Positions 12,985-21,885 of a stretch of 64,000 nucleotides of DNA are shown piece by piece (within the stretch, counting starts at the first letter, position 1; each line of letters begins with the position of its first letter). Made by a program: the position numbers and the translations under genes. The DNA is from Immundisolibacter sp. (lineage in GTDB: Bacteria; Pseudomonadota; Gammaproteobacteria; Immundisolibacterales; Immundisolibacteraceae): the NCBI RefSeq assembly GCF_014359565.1, contig NZ_JACIZD010000001.1, positions 62,001-126,000 of the forward strand. Direction: 5' to 3'. The notes beneath the pieces are model-generated. The model was not told the DNA's origin and searched no databases. It saw nothing but the letters and a program-made list of their open reading frames with translations.

Positions 12985-13044
12985 GGCGAGCCTCGGATTT
13001 CAGATAACGACGCCGGGGCAGCCTACGACAAGCTTGATAACAAC

Positions 13045-13058
13045 AAAAATCGATTTTT
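13045..13058. promoter_or_regulatory. AT-rich perfect palindrome between htpX and the NhaR-like gene
   Basis: AAAAATCGATTTTT, a perfect 14-base palindrome in the 110-base divergent intergenic region, 37 bases before the regulator start. Position and symmetry suit an operator; the protein that binds it is not known. Confidence 0.35.
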
Positions 13059-13094
13059 TAATGGTCCATACCTAATGTAATTCCGAGTAAATGG

Positions 13095-14021
13095 ATGCGC
13101 GGCCTCAACTACAACCACCTGTACTACTTCTGGACCGTGGCGCGCGAGGGCAGCGTCATTGGCGCGGCCAAGGTGCTGTTCCTGACGCCTCAGACCATCA
13201 CCGGCCAGTTGCGCGCGCTGGAGCGCACGCTGGGTGGACGGCTGTTCGCCCCGGCCGGGCGGGGCATTGCGCTCACCGAGCTCGGGCACCTGGCGTTCGG
13301 CTACGCGCAGGAAATCTTTCGGCTGGGCTCGGAAATGCAGGCCGCCGTCGCCGGACGCAGCATCGACCGGCCGTTGCCGTTTCGCGTGGGCGTCGTGGAT
13401 GTGCTGTCGAAGGTCATCGTGCAGCGCCTGCTGGCGCCGGCCCTCGCCCTGGACCGCCCGGTGCAGCTGGCCTGCCGGGAAGGCCCGCTCGAGGATCTGG
13501 TGGCGGAACTGGCGCTGCACAGGCTCGACCTGGTGCTGGCGGACACGGCACTGGCGGCCAATCTGGAGCTGCGCGCCTTCAGCCACCTGCTGGGCGAGTG
13601 TGGGATCAGCTTCTTCGCCGCGCCGGGCCTGCGCGAGCGGCATCCGGGGCGGTTTCCGGACCTGCTGCGCGAAGCGCCGCTGCTGCTGCCGGCACCCCGC
13701 GGGGCGCTGCGCGGCGCCATCGACCACTGGCTGGACCGCCATGACATCCGTCCGCTGATCGCCGGCGAGTTCGACGATGCCAGCCTGATGAAGTCCTTCG
13801 GCCAGGCCGGCGTGGGCGTGTTCACCGGTCCGAGCGCGGTGGCGGACGACATCGTGCGCCAGTACGGCGTGGTCCTGATCGGCGCCACGGACGAAGTACG
13901 CGAGCGCTTCTACGCCATCTCGACCGAGCGGCGACTGCGCCACCCGGCGGTCCGAGTGGTCACCGAAGGCGCGCGCAGTTCGCTGTTTCTTTCCGGCAAC
14001 GCCGAAAAACCGTATCCATGA
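13095..14021 (+). CDS. LysR-family regulator, NhaR-like
   Basis: 308 residues. N-terminal winged helix-turn-helix (about 5-65) starts LNYNHLYYFWTVAREGSVIG and includes LFLTPQTITGQLRALE, the NhaR variant of the LysR DNA-binding helix. The C-terminal part is a LysR substrate-binding fold. NhaR activates the sodium/proton antiporter gene nhaA and biofilm genes in Escherichia coli; no nhaA is in this window, so the target is unknown. It is divergent from htpX, so it may also control that side. Start is the second of two nearby ATGs; the first (13091) is in another frame. Confidence 0.85.
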   Translation: MRGLNYNHLYYFWTVAREGSVIGAAKVLFLTPQTITGQLRALERTLGGRLFAPAGRGIALTELGHLAFGYAQEIFRLGSEMQAAVAGRSIDRPLPFRVGVVDVLSKVIVQRLLAPALALDRPVQLACREGPLEDLVAELALHRLDLVLADTALAANLELRAFSHLLGECGISFFAAPGLRERHPGRFPDLLREAPLLLPAPRGALRGAIDHWLDRHDIRPLIAGEFDDASLMKSFGQAGVGVFTGPSAVADDIVRQYGVVLIGATDEVRERFYAISTERRLRHPAVRVVTEGARSSLFLSGNAEKPYP

Positions 14022-14042
14022 CGTTTTCAGCTCGCCACATCC

Positions 14043-14072
14043 AGGATTCCGCTGCACTTCATCCAGGCGACG
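14043..14072 (+). repeat. Dispersed extragenic repeat R1, copy c (next to the IS110 element)
   Basis: Same 30-base element with two or three changes, lying 22 bases after the NhaR-like gene stop and 38 bases from the transposase stop codon. Confidence 0.75.
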
Positions 14073-15300
14073 CTTATTGGCAGTGGCGGGTAGATACCGT
14101 CTCTCCCGGTCAAGCGATTTTTGCCACCAGGGCGGGGTTGAAGGGAGCCTGATGCTTGAGGATGCCAAAGGCGATGTGGACCAGGCGGCGCATCAGGGCG
14201 CCCAGGGCCGACATCTTGGTTTTGCCGCGCCCGATCAGGTCCAGATAAGCCTTACGCAGCGGTGGGTTGTGGCGCGAGGCGACGATGGCGGCCATGTACA
14301 GCGTGGCGCGCAGGCGCGGATCGCCTTGCTTGGACAGGCATGGACGCTTGTAGACGCTGGTCCCGGACTGGTATTCGATCGGCACCAGGCCGGCACAGGC
14401 GGCGGCCTGGCGGGCCGACTCAAACCGATGCCGCTTGAGCAGGCACAGCAGGCGCCGGGCGCAGGCATCACCCACGCCGGGAATGGTTTTGAGCTGATCG
14501 CGCGCCTGCTTGAGCGGTGGATGCTGGTCGTAGTGGGCGTCGATGGCGCGCAGCAGCCGCTCGCGTTCGGCGCGCAAGGCACTGAGCGAACGCTGCAGCG
14601 AGTCCCGCACCGGGCCGGGCGTATCGGTTGCCTGCGCCTTCTCCAAGCGGTTCTCCTCCCGTTGCAGGTCCTGCGACACCGCATCCAGGCGCGCCACCAG
14701 CGCGCGCAGGGTGCGGATTTCCGGCGTCGGCGGCAGCCACGCCACCAGCTCATCGCCTTCGGCGCCGTAGCGTGCCAACAGGCGGGCGTCGACGGCATCG
14801 TTCTTGGTCAGCAGGCCACGACCCTTGGCATAGTCGCGTACTCGCTTGGGGTTGGCGATGACAACCTCGTAACCGGCGTCATGGAACACCTGTGCCGCCG
14901 CCTCGTGATACACGCCGGTGGCTTCCAGCACCACCCGACAAGCCGACGGCGCCAGCGCTGTTTTGGTACGCAGCCACTCGATCAGGGTATGAACCCCGGC
15001 CGGTTGGTTGTCGACCTTGGCCTTGGTGTGCCACTTGGACCGATCGCCCAACCACAAGGCCGCATCCAGCGTGGCTTTAGACACATCGATACCGAGCGTT
15101 ACCGTTTTCACAACGTGCCCCCGCTCTGTTCATCACATGACCGCGATCCGCGCCTTGGCCGTGAGGCCGTGCTTTCCTTGTCCATGCAGACTCTCAGGCA
15201 CTGCTGGGTCTTGGACTACCGTTCAGTTTCAAAAGGCGCACAGCGGCACGGCGGGGTTGATCTACGTCACAGGCTCGCAGCCTCAGGGTGGGCACAATCT
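14073..15300 (-). mobile_element. IS110-family insertion sequence (approximate limits)
   Basis: Limits are estimates: IS110-group elements lack long terminal inverted repeats, so the ends cannot be read without an empty site. Left limit is set after repeat R1 copy c; right limit allows about 190 bases of non-coding DNA upstream of the transposase start, where family members encode the bridge RNA. Element sits between the NhaR-like gene and AT-richer DNA. Confidence 0.55.
14110..15111 (-). CDS. IS110-family transposase (DEDD recombinase)
   Basis: 333 residues, intact. The N-terminal DEDD_Tnp_IS110 RuvC-like domain has D9 (TLGIDVSKATLDAA), E63 (LEATGVYHEAA), D105 and D108 (KNDAVDARLLARYG). A coiled linker (about 130-185) leads to the Transposase_20 domain with a helix-hairpin-helix (TIPGVGDACARRLL) and the serine-containing SKQGDPRLRATLYMAA region that supplies the nucleophile. 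IS110 elements move a circular intermediate guided by a bridge RNA encoded in a non-coding end. No frameshift or stop is seen, so the element may be active. Confidence 0.95.
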   Translation of the reverse strand: MKTVTLGIDVSKATLDAALWLGDRSKWHTKAKVDNQPAGVHTLIEWLRTKTALAPSACRVVLEATGVYHEAAAQVFHDAGYEVVIANPKRVRDYAKGRGLLTKNDAVDARLLARYGAEGDELVAWLPPTPEIRTLRALVARLDAVSQDLQREENRLEKAQATDTPGPVRDSLQRSLSALRAERERLLRAIDAHYDQHPPLKQARDQLKTIPGVGDACARRLLCLLKRHRFESARQAAACAGLVPIEYQSGTSVYKRPCLSKQGDPRLRATLYMAAIVASRHNPPLRKAYLDLIGRGKTKMSALGALMRRLVHIAFGILKHQAPFNPALVAKIA

Positions 15301-15353
15301 CCCGCCACGCCATACCCCAAGGTCGCGTTTCCAGGGGCAGAAATAAGATACAA

Positions 15354-15380
15354 GGGTGGGCAAAGCGCAGCGTGCCCACG
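15354..15380 (+). repeat. Short palindromic extragenic repeat (R2 type)
   Basis: GGGTGGGCAAAGCGCAGC followed by GTGCCCACG: arms GTGGGCA / TGCCCAC around an AAGCGCAGCG centre, the same layout as the element at 8124 with different arms. Confidence 0.65.
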
Positions 15381-15566
15381 CGGTTGTTCAATAATTCACC
15401 GGTGACGTCTTCGGTTTTACGATTCGACATAGAGAATTTCTCAAGACGGCCAACGCGCAAAAATTCGTACGGCGTCAGCTCGGAATATCAACAACCCGGC
15501 TATTCGCTCAATTTTTTGTAGCGACAGGAAGGTCGCGATTAGTTACACCAATACGCCGCTTTGCGA

Positions 15567-15600
15567 GGCCGCGGTCGCGGGCATGGCCCGCTCCTACAAG
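15567..15600 (+). repeat. Palindromic repeat, GCGGGC-ATG-GCCCGC type
   Basis: Contains GCGGGCATGGCCCGCTCCTAC: arms GCGGGC / GCCCGC around ATG, followed by CTCCTAC. Similar in style to REP elements of Pseudomonas-like genomes. Single copy in this window. Confidence 0.55.
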
Positions 15601-15681
15601 CAACCGATCACGTCGATAAAAGTTCACCCACTTTACGCAGGGTGGATTAGAATCTTAGCGGACGCTATGGCCGGATCATCC

Positions 15682-15711
15682 CGGATTCCGCCGCGCTTCA
15701 TCCGGGCTACG
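15682..15711 (+). repeat. Dispersed extragenic repeat R1, copy d
   Basis: CGGATTCCGCCGCGCTTC followed by ATCCGGGCTACG, two changes from copy a. These changes improve internal symmetry (CCGGAT / ATCCGG), showing R1 is an imperfect palindrome. Confidence 0.75.
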
Positions 15712-15818
15712 CTTGCTGACGTCTAAAGCAGTGTTAGCCTGCAGCGCCGCCTGATACAACATATTAAACCCGAGCACAGTCCGAGAGTCGAACCGTCAGG
15801 TTGACCGACGGGCCCGAA

Positions 15819-16217
15819 TTAATAGGGGCAGCCATTTTCTCTGCATGCAACGTAAGATTTCAGATCCTCAATGCGTTGCTTGGTGTGCTGCCAAAGACAC
15901 CTACTCATTTCCATTGGCCATATTGAGCCAGATTCCTCTTGAGGACCCGATTCATAAAGGCACGCCTTGTCCCTGAAGGCAATCCACGCCCGTTGAGATT
16001 GTTTCAGCCGGGTTTTGGCGGGATCTTTGAGATAATTGATCTGTTCCTTGTACAGGGCATTCATTTCTCCGTCAGCCTTCTTGAAGTCATCACCCGCGCA
16101 AAAATTCAACTGCAGTTGATTGCCACCCTCGACGCACGTCATTTCGGACGAATCAGCCCAGCCGAAAGCTACAGAGCCGGCCACGACAAACATCAAGCCG
16201 ATATTTCTGTACGACAT
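15819..16217 (-). CDS. LprI-like (DUF1311) secreted protein
   Basis: 132 residues with a signal peptide (about 1-21). The mature part matches the LprI/DUF1311 lysozyme-inhibitor fold: LNFCAGDDFKKADGEMNALY, then LKQSQRAWIAFRDKACLYES, and a closing CLWQHTKQRIEDLKSYV helix, with Cys residues positioned for disulfides. Family members bind and inhibit lysozyme or are of unknown periplasmic function. The ATG has AGGA upstream. Codon use is AT-richer than neighbouring housekeeping genes and it is flanked by palindromic repeats and an IS, consistent with horizontal acquisition. Confidence 0.82.
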   Translation of the reverse strand: MSYRNIGLMFVVAGSVAFGWADSSEMTCVEGGNQLQLNFCAGDDFKKADGEMNALYKEQINYLKDPAKTRLKQSQRAWIAFRDKACLYESGPQEESGSIWPMEMSRCLWQHTKQRIEDLKSYVACRENGCPY

Positions 16218-16236
16218 ATATCATTCCTAAGTTCAT

Positions 16237-16270
16237 GTAGGTTGGGTTGGGTTGACGCAGGAAGACCAAC
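16237..16270 (+). repeat. Palindromic repeat (R2 type), left member of an inverted pair
   Basis: GTAGGTTGGGTTGGGTTGAC followed by GCAGGAAGACCAAC. Arms GTTGGG / C-CAAC around TTGACGCAGGAAG. Its reverse complement, slightly shorter, is at 16407-16435. Confidence 0.65.
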
Positions 16271-16406
16271 GTTTATTTCTCTCCGCCACGGGTCGTCGAC
16301 GCGCCAAATCTGCGTATCCGGGCTTTTTGCCCGCAGGTTTGTTTCGGACCAATGTGGCGCGCTAACGTCCGCCGATTACGCATTATGTCCTTGCCTGCCT
16401 TGGCTT

Positions 16407-16435
16407 GTTGGGCTTCCTGCGTCAGCCCAACCTAC
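16407..16435 (-). repeat. Palindromic repeat (R2 type), right member of an inverted pair
   Basis: Plus-strand GTTGGGCTTCCTGCGTCAGC followed by CCAACCTAC, the reverse complement of the 16237 element without one duplicated GTTGG. The 136 bases between the pair hold no recognisable gene. Confidence 0.65.
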
Positions 16436-16467
16436 CTGCCGTTGTGCGTGGCGCCGGGTTGTTCGCT

Positions 16468-17187
16468 TCACCCACACTTCGACTCCCCGCAATTCAGACA
16501 CGTCAGACACCCATCCATCATGATCATGGCCTTGGTGCTGCACTTGTAGCAGAGCTGGGCGCCGTCGGGGTAGGTGGCGTCGGTGTCGGCTTTGGTCTGG
16601 CCGGTGCGGGTTTCGTATTCGTTGCGCTTTTCTTCGATCAGTTTCAGTTGGCGGGCGTCGAGTTCGCTGTCGGGCAGCATGCCGATGGTGCGTAGGTGCT
16701 GTTCGATTGCATCACCGATTTCGGCCACCAGGGACGGCATGTAGCGGCCGCCTTTCTTGAAGTAGCCGCCGCGCGGGTCGAACACGGCCTTGAGCTCTTC
16801 CACCAGGAAGGTGATGTCGCCGCCCTTGCGGAACACGGCGGACACGATGCGCGTCAGCGCCACGATCCACTGGAAGTGCTCCATGCTCTTGGAGTTGATG
16901 AAGATCTCGAACGGCCGGTAGTGCTCGTGCTCGGTGCCGGCGTTCAGCACGATGTCGTTGATGGTCAGGTACAGGGCGTGCTCGGTGAGCGGCGTCTTGA
17001 TCTTGTAGGTGGTGCCGCGCAGGGTTTCCGGCCGCTCCAGCTTTTCGTGCATCTGGATGACTTTGGCGCTTTGCCGATCGGCGCTTTCTGCGGCCGGCAT
17101 TTCGGTTTTGGGCGCGCTGGTGCGGGCCGGCTCGTCGGCGCCAACCACGCTGTAACCGGTGATTTTCTTTTCGATGCGAATGGTCAT
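16468..17187 (-). CDS. nrdJb: Class II ribonucleotide reductase, second polypeptide NrdJb
   Basis: 239 residues. Corresponds to the C-terminal part of single-chain class II reductases, encoded separately as in Pseudomonas aeruginosa. Visible parts: a TSCPD-type core (about 50-180: LYLTINDIVLNAG, FEIFINSKSMEHFQWIVAL, GGYFKKGGRYMPSLVAEIG) and a C-terminal Cys-rich ribbon CYKCSTKAMIMMDGCLTCLN ending ESKCG. The tail cysteines are where such enzymes are re-reduced by thioredoxin. Start is the ATG at 17187, 17 bases after the nrdJa stop, so the two are one operon. Longer upstream frames run through nrdJa and are not real. Confidence 0.9.
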   Translation of the reverse strand: MTIRIEKKITGYSVVGADEPARTSAPKTEMPAAESADRQSAKVIQMHEKLERPETLRGTTYKIKTPLTEHALYLTINDIVLNAGTEHEHYRPFEIFINSKSMEHFQWIVALTRIVSAVFRKGGDITFLVEELKAVFDPRGGYFKKGGRYMPSLVAEIGDAIEQHLRTIGMLPDSELDARQLKLIEEKRNEYETRTGQTKADTDATYPDGAQLCYKCSTKAMIMMDGCLTCLNCGESKCG

Positions 17188-17204
17188 GGGTTGATTCCTG
17201 GCGA

Positions 17205-20200
17205 TCAGAACTTGCCGTAGTAGCCTTCTTTGAGGGCATCGAACAGGTTGGCGGCCGTGTGCACTTCGCCGTCGTATTCGATTTCCTCGTTGCCCTTGGC
17301 CTCGATGGTGGTGCCATCGTCCAGCTCGAAGCGGTAGGTGGTGTTTTCGAGGTCCTTTTCCTTGACCAGCACGCCCTGGAAGGCAGCCGGGTTGAAGCGG
17401 AAGGTGGTGCAGCCTTTCAGGCCCTGGTCGTAGGCGTACAGGTAAATGTTCTTGAAGTCCTCGAACGGGTAGTCGGTGGGCACGTTGGCGGTTTTGGAGA
17501 TGGACGAGTCGATCCACCGCTGCGCGGCGGCCTGGATGTCCACGTGCGCCTTGGGGGTGATGTCCTCGGCGGTGATGAAGTACTCCGGCAGTTGCTCGGC
17601 CGGGTCGGCGCTACCCGGGATGGCGCGCGGGTTGACCAGGTGGCGGTAGGCCAGCAGTTCGTACGAGAACACGTCCACCTTTTCCTTGGTCTTGCGACCC
17701 TCGCGGATGACGTTGCGGAAGTAGTGGTGGGCGAAGCTGGGCTCGATGCCGTTGCTGGCGTTGTTGGCCAGCGACAGGGAGATGGTGCCGGTGGGCGCGA
17801 TGGAGCTGTGGTGGGTGAAGCGCGCGCCGCGCTCGGCGATGGCCTCGATCAGGTCCGGGCGCACGCCGCCGACGCGCTGCATGTAGCGGCTGTAGCGCGC
17901 CAGCAGCACGCGGCCGGGCAGCTTGTCGCCCAGCTTGTGGCCGTCGGCGGCCAGTTCCGGGCGCTTGCGCAGCATGTCCGGCGTGATCTCGAACAGCTCG
18001 TCCATGATCGGCGCCGGGCCTTTTTCCTCGGCCAGCGCCACGCCGGCTTCCCAGCCGGCAATGGCCATTTCACGCGACACGGCTTCGGTGAATTCCAGGG
18101 ACTGGGCGTCGCCGTAGCGGCGACCGAGCATGGTCAGCGTGGAACCCAGGCCCAGAAAGCCCATGCCGTGGCGGCGCTTGCGGAAGATTTCGTCCCGCTG
18201 CTGCTGCAGCGGCAGGCCGTTGATTTCCACCACGTTGTCCAGCATGCGCGTGAACACGCGCACTACCTCGCGGTATTCGTCCCAGTTGAAGCGCGCCTCG
18301 GGCGTGAACGGCGCCTCGACGAAGGTGGTGAGGTTGATCGAGCCCAGCAGGCAGGCGCCGTAGGGGGGGAGTCCCTGCTCACCACACTGCCCGGTCACGA
18401 TGCCGTTGAACACGACGGAATTGTGGTCCGGCTGGGTGGTGTCATAAACCGGATGCACACCCTCGTAAGCGATTTTCTCTACGCGAGCGGTGAAACGCTG
18501 GGTCTTGCGCAGACTTTTATCCGCGACCCATGCATTGTATTTGGCCGTCTTGTTTTCTGACAGAAAACCGATTTCATGCATGAAGCGATCGCGGGACTCG
18601 CCGTCGATGATCAATTCGTAGTCGGCCTTGCAGTGATACAGCTTGTGGCTGCCCTTGCCGTCTGGCAGGAGACGATCTTGCTCGTCACGGCGCTTGTGGA
18701 TTCGGGAAAATATTCCAAAATTGGCCAGCAACATCTGGACGTCTTTCAACAGGCTCGGTTGACTGGAGGCAAGCCGGACGGAGCACGTCAAGGACTTGCC
18801 CGAAACATTGACCGAACCGTCGGCCTGAAACAGGCCGCGCAGGTAGCCGACCACGCAGTCTTCAGTACCCTGCCAGACCACTTCGGGCACTTGGAACTTG
18901 CATTCCTTGGTGAAACCGTAGTGCTGCAGATAGCGCGCCAGCAACACGGAGCCCACAAAGACGTGGTTGCGATTCTCGACCGCAACCGGCTGCACCTGAT
19001 AGTCCCGGCCCTTCTGAAGGCCAGTCCCGGCAATCAAGGTGTTTACATGGCTGGCGATGTTTGTGGCGAGAGGCCGATCCTCACCCCAGAAATTGACATA
19101 GGCAATCGATTGCTTGTTCTTCGTTTCAGTGAAATGCCCATCGCCGGTTATCAGACCGATAAGTAATCCAAGTTCAAGGCTGCCCTGATCGCCAAATTGG
19201 CCCTTGCCGGACTGGATCAGTAGCTCGTCACCGACTTTCAGCTCCTTGAGCTTGAGCTTGCCGCGCTGAGTATAGAAATCGTGCCACTCGGTGGCCTTGA
19301 TTTCGTAGCCCTCCCGAGTGACCACGCGGTACACGTCTGCAGTTTGCGATGTCATGAACGCGGGCTTGGCCGGGCGTATGGCTGTGCCGCGCGTTGCCTC
19401 GGACAAGGTCCGCGTGTCGACCGTCACCTGCAGCGGCTCGCCGGTCTCGTACAACTCGCCGATCGGGATCATGCCGCGCGCGGTGTGCAACCGGGTGTCC
19501 GCCGTCACGCAGGGATTCGTCGCGCGGATGTTCTCGCAGAACCAGTTGTTGTTCAGGTCGTTGTACTGGTCGATCAGGATGAAGCCCGGCTCGGCGTAGT
19601 CGTAGGTGGACGTCATGATCAGGTCCCACAGCCGGCGCGCCTTGATGGTCTTGTAGACCCGGCAGGCGACCAGGCCCTGGTCGTTGACGATGTAGCCGCG
19701 GTGGGTGGGCCATTCGCGCCAGATGATGTTGTCGGCGGTATGCACGTCGATGCCGTCAGCCGCCGCCTCGTGACTGGCGACCGGGAAGGCGAGCTGCCAG
19801 TCGCTGCCGGCCTTGACCGCCTCGATGAACTCGCGCGTGACCAGCAGCGACAGGTTGAACTGGCGCAGGCGGCCGTCCTCGCGCTTGGCGCGGATGAAAT
19901 CGACCACGTCCGGGTGGCCGACGTCGAAGGTGGCCATCTGCGCGCCGCGCCGCCCCCCGGCCGACGACACGGTGAAGCACATCTTGTCGTAGATATCCAT
20001 GAACGACAGCGGCCCGGAGGTGTACGAGCCGGCGCCGGTCACGTAGGCGCCGCGCGGGCGCAGGGTGCTGAATTCGTAGCCGATGCCGCAGTTGTGGATC
20101 ACCAGCAGGCCGGCGTTGCCGGCCAGATAGTTGTTGTGCTTCTCGACCGTGAAGTCGTAGAAGGTTTCGGGCAGATCCAGGCCGCGCTCGATGGCCTCGA

Positions 20201-21800
20201 CCGGGCGCAGACAGCGGGCGAAGTCGATCAGCGGCGCAAGGGCCGGGAAGCGCTGCGCCCAACGATTCAGCCAGATGCGGCTGACGACTGCCTGGCGGTG
20301 GTAGCCGTGATAGAAGCCGAGCCGCTGACGTTCCTGGTGGCCAAGCTCGCCCTCCAGGGTGGCCAGCGCCGCGTGCAGGTCGGCCGGCACGACGTAACGG
20401 TCGTACTGACCGGCTTGGCTGGCGTGGTCCTGAATACGCTGGCGCTTGCCACTATCGGCCATATAGCCCGCCAATGCGTCCAGGAAGGCCGAGTCGCTGA
20501 TTTTCAGCATGGCGCCGCCGCTGTCGCGTACGGTGTGACCGTTGTAGTCGTGCTCGCGCGGCTGGCGCACGGTGAGCCCGGCGTGGACACCGAACAGGCC
20601 AAGCAGGGCCTTCAATTCCGCGGCAAACACGGTGTTTTGCGTGGCCAGGCTGACGCTGCCATGCTCGCGGCAGACTGTGCCGTCGGTGTCGATCAGGCCG
20701 GCCAGGAATGGCAGGAAGTGGCGCTCGGGATGGCGCGCGATCCAGTCCGGCACGCGCAGGCAGGCGGTCTTGGCGCCGACCTGCCAGTCGATCAGTTCAG
20801 CCGCCCGGCTGGCGGCGAAACTCGCCACGGCAAAGTCCCACACCGGGGTACCGTTGCGGGTGCTGGTGGCCACCACTTGCGCACGGCTACCGCAAAAGGC
20901 CTGAAAGAACGCGGCATAGCGCTCGACCACCTCGCGCTCGGCAGCGCGGATCTTGAACACCAGCCGCCGGCCAAGGGCGGCCGCGCGGTGCTGCCAAGCG
21001 CTGCGCGTCGGCCGGTAGCTGTGGCGTTTTTCGCAGGCACTGCCATCGCCCAGATGTGCGCCGGCAAACCAGGCTTCCTGCTGCGCCTGCGCGTCGGCCC
21101 GCCACGGGAAGCAATGCTGCACCAGAGCATCCGACATCCGGACCTCGTCGGCGCGCTGATAGCTCAGGGCACCGTCCCGGTACACCAGCACCGGGTGGCG
21201 GATCGAGGTTTTCAGGGCCACACCGTTGGCGCGCAGTTCAATGTTGTCTGCACGCGGCACGTGTGTGGTCAGGTGGCGCTCGATACGGCGCATCTCGAAG
21301 CGCCGGGCGCTTCGGTCGTAGGCCAGGATTTGCGCGTGCTTTCCTTGCACCGCCTGCTGGGCGCTGACCAGGCCCTGGTCCGTGAACACCCAGGTATCAG
21401 GCGCGACACAGCCGGCTTTCAGCGTGAGCCCCGCCTCGTGGACCTTCTGCAGGATGTCGTCCATCGAGTCCTCGATGGTGCCGGACACGGTGCAGTTGAT
21501 GGTGGAGGTGGCCGGCTTGTGCTCCAGCGCGCCGGCGTTGGAGGTGATGCGGCCGGCCGGGATGGCGCCGCGGCGCAGCGCCCACAGGAAGCGTTCGTAC
21601 CAGTGCTCGCGCAGGTCCGGGGCTTCGGCGTCGGCCAGGGCGCGCGCCACGCGCTGGTAGGTCTCGTCCACGGTGCGGTCGATGACCGTGCCGTCCTTGG
21701 CCTTGAGGCGGTATTTCTTGTCCCAGATGTCCAGCGAGGCCGGCTGGACGGGCACGTCTGCGTTACGCGCAGCTGCGTGAATGGCGACCACCTTATTCAT
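17205..21800 (-). CDS. nrdJa: Adenosylcobalamin-dependent (class II) ribonucleotide reductase NrdJa with two inteins
   Basis: 1531-residue precursor; removing residues 131-570 and 764-1138 leaves a host protein of 716 residues, the normal NrdJa length. It reduces ribonucleotides to deoxyribonucleotides using a cobalamin-generated thiyl radical and needs no oxygen. Host landmarks: N-terminal TINCTVSGTIEDSMDDI with the first redox Cys; KAG|CGIGYEFSTLRPRG split by intein 1; NIRATNP|CGEQGLPPYG split by intein 2, where the Cys is the radical Cys (N-x-C-x-E, equivalent to Cys439 of E. coli NrdA); and TGTISLSLANNASNGIEPSF. The ATG at 21800 is preferred over the adjacent TTG at 21803; GGGAG lies upstream. 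Followed 17 bases later by nrdJb. Confidence 0.95.
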   Translation of the reverse strand: MNKVVAIHAAARNADVPVQPASLDIWDKKYRLKAKDGTVIDRTVDETYQRVARALADAEAPDLREHWYERFLWALRRGAIPAGRITSNAGALEHKPATSTINCTVSGTIEDSMDDILQKVHEAGLTLKAGCVAPDTWVFTDQGLVSAQQAVQGKHAQILAYDRSARRFEMRRIERHLTTHVPRADNIELRANGVALKTSIRHPVLVYRDGALSYQRADEVRMSDALVQHCFPWRADAQAQQEAWFAGAHLGDGSACEKRHSYRPTRSAWQHRAAALGRRLVFKIRAAEREVVERYAAFFQAFCGSRAQVVATSTRNGTPVWDFAVASFAASRAAELIDWQVGAKTACLRVPDWIARHPERHFLPFLAGLIDTDGTVCREHGSVSLATQNTVFAAELKALLGLFGVHAGLTVRQPREHDYNGHTVRDSGGAMLKISDSAFLDALAGYMADSGKRQRIQDHASQAGQYDRYVVPADLHAALATLEGELGHQERQRLGFYHGYHRQAVVSRIWLNRWAQRFPALAPLIDFARCLRPVEAIERGLDLPETFYDFTVEKHNNYLAGNAGLLVIHNCGIGYEFSTLRPRGAYVTGAGSYTSGPLSFMDIYDKMCFTVSSAGGRRGAQMATFDVGHPDVVDFIRAKREDGRLRQFNLSLLVTREFIEAVKAGSDWQLAFPVASHEAAADGIDVHTADNIIWREWPTHRGYIVNDQGLVACRVYKTIKARRLWDLIMTSTYDYAEPGFILIDQYNDLNNNWFCENIRATNPCVTADTRLHTARGMIPIGELYETGEPLQVTVDTRTLSEATRGTAIRPAKPAFMTSQTADVYRVVTREGYEIKATEWHDFYTQRGKLKLKELKVGDELLIQSGKGQFGDQGSLELGLLIGLITGDGHFTETKNKQSIAYVNFWGEDRPLATNIASHVNTLIAGTGLQKGRDYQVQPVAVENRNHVFVGSVLLARYLQHYGFTKECKFQVPEVVWQGTEDCVVGYLRGLFQADGSVNVSGKSLTCSVRLASSQPSLLKDVQMLLANFGIFSRIHKRRDEQDRLLPDGKGSHKLYHCKADYELIIDGESRDRFMHEIGFLSENKTAKYNAWVADKSLRKTQRFTARVEKIAYEGVHPVYDTTQPDHNSVVFNGIVTGQCGEQGLPPYGACLLGSINLTTFVEAPFTPEARFNWDEYREVVRVFTRMLDNVVEINGLPLQQQRDEIFRKRRHGMGFLGLGSTLTMLGRRYGDAQSLEFTEAVSREMAIAGWEAGVALAEEKGPAPIMDELFEITPDMLRKRPELAADGHKLGDKLPGRVLLARYSRYMQRVGGVRPDLIEAIAERGARFTHHSSIAPTGTISLSLANNASNGIEPSFAHHYFRNVIREGRKTKEKVDVFSYELLAYRHLVNPRAIPGSADPAEQLPEYFITAEDITPKAHVDIQAAAQRWIDSSISKTANVPTDYPFEDFKNIYLYAYDQGLKGCTTFRFNPAAFQGVLVKEKDLENTTYRFELDDGTTIEAKGNEEIEYDGEVHTAANLFDALKEGYYGKF
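18387..19511 (-). other. Intein 2 of NrdJa (375 aa, LAGLIDADG endonuclease)
   Basis: Residues 764-1138 of the precursor. It begins CVTADTRLHTARGMIPIGEL (splicing block A) and ends VVFNGIVTGQ before the host Cys. The homing endonuclease has two dodecapeptides, LIGLITGDG (880-888) and LRGLFQADG (987-995). The terminal residue is Gln and the penultimate one Gly, instead of the usual His-Asn; terminal Gln is known for some reductase inteins. DNA here is AT-richer than the flanking host parts, suggesting a later arrival than intein 1. Confidence 0.9.
20091..21410 (-). other. Intein 1 of NrdJa (440 aa, LAGLIDADG endonuclease)
   Basis: Residues 131-570 of the precursor. It begins CVAPDTWVFTDQGLVSAQQA, has a block-B-like segment (LKTSIRHPVLVYRDG) and ends with the canonical block F/G phrase FYDFTVEKHNNYLAGN...LLVIHN before the host Cys. 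Homing endonuclease dodecapeptides are FAGAHLGDG (245-253) and LAGLIDTDG (366-374), both with the catalytic acidic residue, so the nuclease may be functional. Base composition matches the host gene. Confidence 0.93.
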
Positions 21801-21885
21801 CAATGCTCAGACTCCCTGGGTCGTTATGCGTGCGAGGATGCCAACGCGAGCGCGGCTGCCGGTGGCCTTTGGCCAGGGCTAGAAA

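Follow-up and report, generated by a model that had tools for sequence, protein, structure and literature searches.

Does the non-coding DNA upstream of an intact IS110-family recombinase gene in our window (the whole 64-kb stretch of Immundisolibacter sp. DNA that was analysed) encode a bridge RNA, and which sequences would such an RNA recognise? The first-pass annotation had placed a candidate within 15112-15300, next to the transposase start. That IS110-type elements encode RNAs in the longer of their non-coding ends is already published (sections of PMC11208160 and PMC11187229), and we are highly confident, on the basis of sequence comparisons, that the left end of a 1.26-kb IS110-group element at this locus encodes a bridge RNA of ~190 nt that directed insertion to the foot of a REP-like repeat.

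The recombinase gene (14110-15111, minus strand) is intact, as the annotation had it, an ORF of 333 aa with a GTG start; it matches the Pfam families DEDD_Tnp_IS110 (5.4e-24) and Transposase_20 (5.3e-23) and is also placed in the IS110 family by NCBIfam. It is related over its length to the IS621 recombinase (E 1.8e-48, 38% identity), and its residues D9, E63, D105, D108 and S249, with the conserved serine in the Tnp domain, align with the catalytic residues of IS621 (as given in part of PMC11208158) and are invariant across 7 aligned sequences, among them an IS621 sequence entered by hand. Close relatives are rare: none turned up in 6 further genomes from the family at E 1e-80 or in 7 others from the order at 1e-85; of 368 other genomes of the class, 3 hold relatives at 1e-85, and of 397 others of the phylum, 1 does at 1e-70, the draws overlapping. 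Six loci with relatives lie on genome contigs, the viral contigs yielded no close relatives, and a search of plasmid DNA found none; the protein search of plasmids returned 2467 records, each below 60% identity. The gene is present in a single copy in its genome, and there is therefore no sign of recent spread within it; three weaker relatives occur there (at 40%, at 32% and, over a 69-residue stretch, at 41%).

The borders of the element follow from an empty site in a genome of the same genus, in which the flanking DNA is uninterrupted. A BLAST comparison of 13000-17500 with this site aligns 1094 columns at 96% identity, ending at 14093, and a further 151 columns at 93% identity from 15353 onward, with an overlap of 2 bp; the plus strand of the empty site reads GGCGGGT-AG-GGTGGGC, which gives CT on the element strand. 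As the empty-site join falls at this CT core, the element (14094-15352, minus strand, 1259 bp with one core copy uncounted) has a left end of 241 nt (15112-15352) and a right end of 16 nt (14094-14109), bordered by core copies at 15353-15354 (left junction) and 14092-14093 (right junction); the right target half opens with AC at 14090-14091, two bases that are found in the empty site. Copies from Marinomonas (four) and Catenovulum (two) diverge at the homologous ends, as judged by eye from printed flanks, and, of the five best matches to other genomic copies of the target repeat, REP-B, four stop at 15353 and one at 15354; both observations agree with these borders. The ~190 bases that the annotation had described as non-coding and retained are indeed non-coding, with no recognisable gene in the left end, and belong to the element; their limit at 15300 was set too short, the border lying at 15352, and the worry that the element might end too close to the ORF for such an RNA is answered by the 241 nt that the mapped ends leave.

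A long non-coding left end, a short right end and a CT core at both ends constitute the layout of IS110, not of IS1111. That the element could nevertheless be of the IS1111 type, with its RNA in the right end and the upstream region a mere leader, finds some footing in the shared protein family name and in known REP-targeting insertion sequences (part of PMC1525189), but we give it practically no credence: a right end of 16 nt is too short for the long RNA-carrying end of that type, the terminal 60 bases hold no subterminal inverted repeats of 7-17 bp (the longest exact inverted match there is 6 bp and lies well inside), and it is the upstream region that matches an RNA model. IS1111 membership is contradicted by the mapped ends.

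To the IS110 reading we can add a conserved fold. The left ends of 14 elements (ours, six from other genomes and seven from plasmids), aligned without structural information, share an initial block, CTTGTATC, a GTAG or CAG on the first loop's 3' side, and the further blocks TGAACGGTA and GCATGnACAAGG. Both sides have changed in 24 of the 32 pairs of the structure read from this alignment (shuffles, 15.3 ± 2.2), and 81.7% of its cells are paired, versus 39.4-46.6% when the pairing partners are displaced by 1-3 columns, a control biased in favour of the structure because the latter was read from columns of the same sequences. A covariance model (R2) built from the 13 relatives, with our sequence left out, matches 15160-15354 on the minus strand at E 4e-20, its sole match in the window at a cutoff of E 10; over the whole genome the locus is the best of 4 matches, the next standing at E 0.019, all E-values being rough owing to a short calibration. 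This interval gives the extent of the model match, CT core included, and not mapped RNA ends.

The predicted RNA would consist of a 5' stem-loop (15313-15339, from the single-sequence fold and the alignment), a target-binding loop (15245-15311, with helix strands 15301-15311 and 15245-15255 and an inner hairpin at 15271-15283) and a donor-binding loop (15166-15244, with helix strands 15238-15244 and 15166-15172 and an inner hairpin at 15188-15211), all on the minus strand and, with covariation among relatives, fitting the plan of IS621. In our sequence, all 11 model pairs of the target-loop helix form, the donor helix is shifted in register relative to the relatives, and the 5' stem-loop is formed by other bases, the TTAGCTA loop of most relatives being replaced. 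The folding energy of this single sequence does not stand out (z -0.68, with 43 of 200 shuffles equally good) and was set aside as uninformative; RNAalifold also paired CTTGT with ACAAG as a helix, which we read instead as donor-guide complementarity. Rfam at gathering scores gave zero matches over the window, and a permissive search over 14050-15450 gave one chance-level snoRNA match within the ORF. The covariance-model search that the first-pass annotation had suggested, together with the conserved fold, thus supports a putative bridge-RNA locus upstream of the transposase; the interval given for it, 15112-15300, captures both target guides and the donor loop and misses the stem-loop at 15313-15339 and the helix strand at 15301-15311.

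The first internal loop matches the bases that flank the element, as the annotation had wondered. Its left target guide, GTGCCCACCCT (15285-15295, minus strand), equals the flank TTGCCCACCCT at 10 of 11 positions; a scan of the 64 kb on both strands for this 11-mer finds that level nowhere but in these two places, and from base composition one would expect 0.0017 matches as good in the left end. The right target guide, GTAG (15262-15265, minus strand), followed by the handshake bases AT (15260-15261), fits CT-AC, that is, the core and two bases, at 4/4 and the next four bases at 0/4; in IS621, according to a part of PMC11208158, the right target guide is 4 nt long, covering the core plus a further two bases, and handshake bases come next.

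Since the element sits in REP-B, which has the same letters, CCCACCC in the left end might be a leftover of the repeat and no guide, with the fold arising by chance. This is very improbable: relatives carry other letters at the same place of the RNA, which match their own, different flanks, and the covariation and the blind model match would be left unexplained. Among 14 families, left guides agree with their own flanks at 6.5 of 9 positions in a hand-set register (other pairs, 2.63) and at 5.43 in a mechanical register (other pairs, 2.53), with 0 of 200,000 permutations reaching either value when relatedness of the elements is ignored; L069 and L072 do not match their flanks, agreeing at just 2 and 4 of 9 positions. 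These permutation tests contradict a REP origin of CCCACCC. On the right side, nine elements score 3.33 over the 4 nt past the core (other pairs, 1.83; 74 of 200,000 permutations, relatedness again ignored), our own scoring 2/4. Of 24 elements, 20 have a handshake base that forms a Watson-Crick pair, a count reached in 142 of 100,000 permutations; the 24 come from 40 rows, 7 duplicates and 9 rows lacking CAAG in register having been dropped. As a separate observation, L072 and L076, from Enterobacteriaceae plasmids, are near-identical elements at apparently the same site; L076 matches its flank at 11/11 and lacks part of the left end, and L072 has a complete left end and a flank match of 6/11.

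The reading of the first loop as a guide extends to elements outside the model. A second model that includes our own sequence (R1) hits 22 of 369 class genomes, ours among them, with 36 matches in all. We took 30 of these loci, 11 of which end within 54 nt of the match, leaving 19 that could be checked; a stretch of IS110 recombinase starts within 120 nt downstream in 14 of the 19 (just 79 residues in L107), and 4 of these 14 are our own or were used for the model. No recombinase was found by tblastn with our protein in L114, L115, L116, L117 and L118. For the guide comparison, 40 rows were aligned, from which 14 model rows and 7 further copies from the same genomes were removed; the remaining 19 elements agree with their own flanks at 6.79 of 9 positions versus 3.42 for other flanks (0 of 200,000 permutations, relatedness ignored), although L114 and L116 score 2/9 each against their own. 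Three further loci in our own genome, L094, L095 and L096 (contigs C9, C18 and C25), score weakly with the model (19.5-19.7 bits) and resemble a second IS110-like left end, present in several copies and lying near contig ends; judged by eye, guide-like stretch and flank differ at one base in each copy, and the difference runs opposite in L094 versus L095 and L096, possibly as an assembly effect.

The second loop resembles the element's own ends. The left donor guide, AACGGTA (15217-15223), faces a right end that reads GACGGTAT, and the right donor guide, ACAAG (15177-15181), lies with the handshake base G15176 in 15176-15182, all on the minus strand; ACGGTA and CTTGT are common to donor loop and element ends and other positions differ, a match made by reading. 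In 2 of 9 elements, L005 and L009, end and guide share a changed base (GATGGTAT with GAATGGTAT). Six of the 9 elements carry TTGAC at a distance of 19 or 20 nt ahead of the core, which is no more than suggestive of a promoter across the joined ends.

We propose that the first internal loop would recognise the chromosomal site through both guides, GTGCCCACCCT on the left pairing with the bottom strand at TTGCCCACC-CT and GTAG on the right with the top strand at CT-AC, and that the second would pair with the joined element ends, AACGGTA with the right end and ACAAG with the left, whereupon the DEDD/Ser recombinase would swap strands at the CT core. By analogy with IS621, the RNA would be expressed from a circular form and bound by the recombinase, which would exchange strands and may be active at present; we infer, as the annotation had held plausible, that the guide is expressed and functional. 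It is nonetheless conceivable, if unlikely, that the bridge-RNA locus is real and this copy now inactive, for instance through a drifted 5' stem-loop or donor helix: the element is single copy, its 5' stem-loop is replaced and its donor helix is shifted. Against this, the ORF is intact with its catalytic residues kept, the target helix and guides are intact, the insertion is younger than the divergence from a genome whose flanks are still ~93-96% alike, and loss of the 5' stem-loop only slightly lowered recombination in IS621 (part of PMC11208158).

The target of the proposed bridge RNA is the foot of a REP-like palindrome that recurs in dispersed copies; the element lies there, beside a lysR-type gene. 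The left half of REP-B that remains here (15353-15390, minus strand) is defined by the other genome copies, two of which read GCGTGGGCACGCTGCGCTTTGCCCACC-CT-ACG, the remaining copies differing by at least one base; bases past CTAC vary between copies. REP-A (14038-14075) was considered as the target and discarded, the empty site having revealed REP-B. REP-A and REP-C repeats crowd the same intergenic region (14038-14075, 15568-15608 and 15668-15718), and, on the minus strand, a 1532-aa ribonucleotide reductase ORF (17205-21803) appears to hold two inteins, its reductase match being broken by two LAGLIDADG_3 and two Intein_splicing stretches. REP-specific insertion has been described for several insertion sequences (part of PMC1525189), and elements that we chose for similar flanks also lie, by eye, at palindrome feet, several of these flanks being arms of palindromes that differ in sequence. 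Tentatively, the target guide of bridge RNAs in this IS110 clade may change faster than the scaffold and settle repeatedly on the feet of REP-like palindromes, so that REP families would be shared landing sites for different elements. Elements elsewhere with guides ending in CCCACCCT share just 46-60% of the scaffold with ours, and the nearest relative by scaffold (61%) carries a different guide, a comparison that is a lead, as loci were picked for guide or flank.

At this locus an RNA-guided recombinase element can be followed completely, from its empty site and exact ends to its target and donor guides; the covariance model finds more such RNAs where Rfam has none in the window, and the link between guide RNA and dispersed repeat is directly testable by altering the guide. 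Our search of the literature from 2025 on found nothing on IS110 bridge RNA orthologues. Among solved structures, the best match of the recombinase is the ISCro4 transposase (PDB 9t56, E 9.8e-51). In the seekRNA systems, where an RNA from the non-coding region of IS1111 and IS110 elements picks the target, passages of PMC11187229 place this RNA usually upstream in the IS110 type, as here, and usually downstream in the IS1111 type, along with subterminal inverted repeats, neither of which our element has. IS621 (IS110 group, PDB 8wt6 and others), as far as described in parts of PMC11208160 and PMC11208158, likewise has its RNA in a long left end, a CT core, a 5' stem-loop, a target loop and a donor loop, the same order of guide strands, a 4-nt right target guide that covers the core and two further bases, and handshake bases; it differs in its guides, target repeat, and the sequences of the 5' stem-loop and the donor-loop hairpin. 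The element thus appears to be a clear new example of the recently described RNA-guided mobile elements, and its unusual point is the replaced 5' stem-loop.
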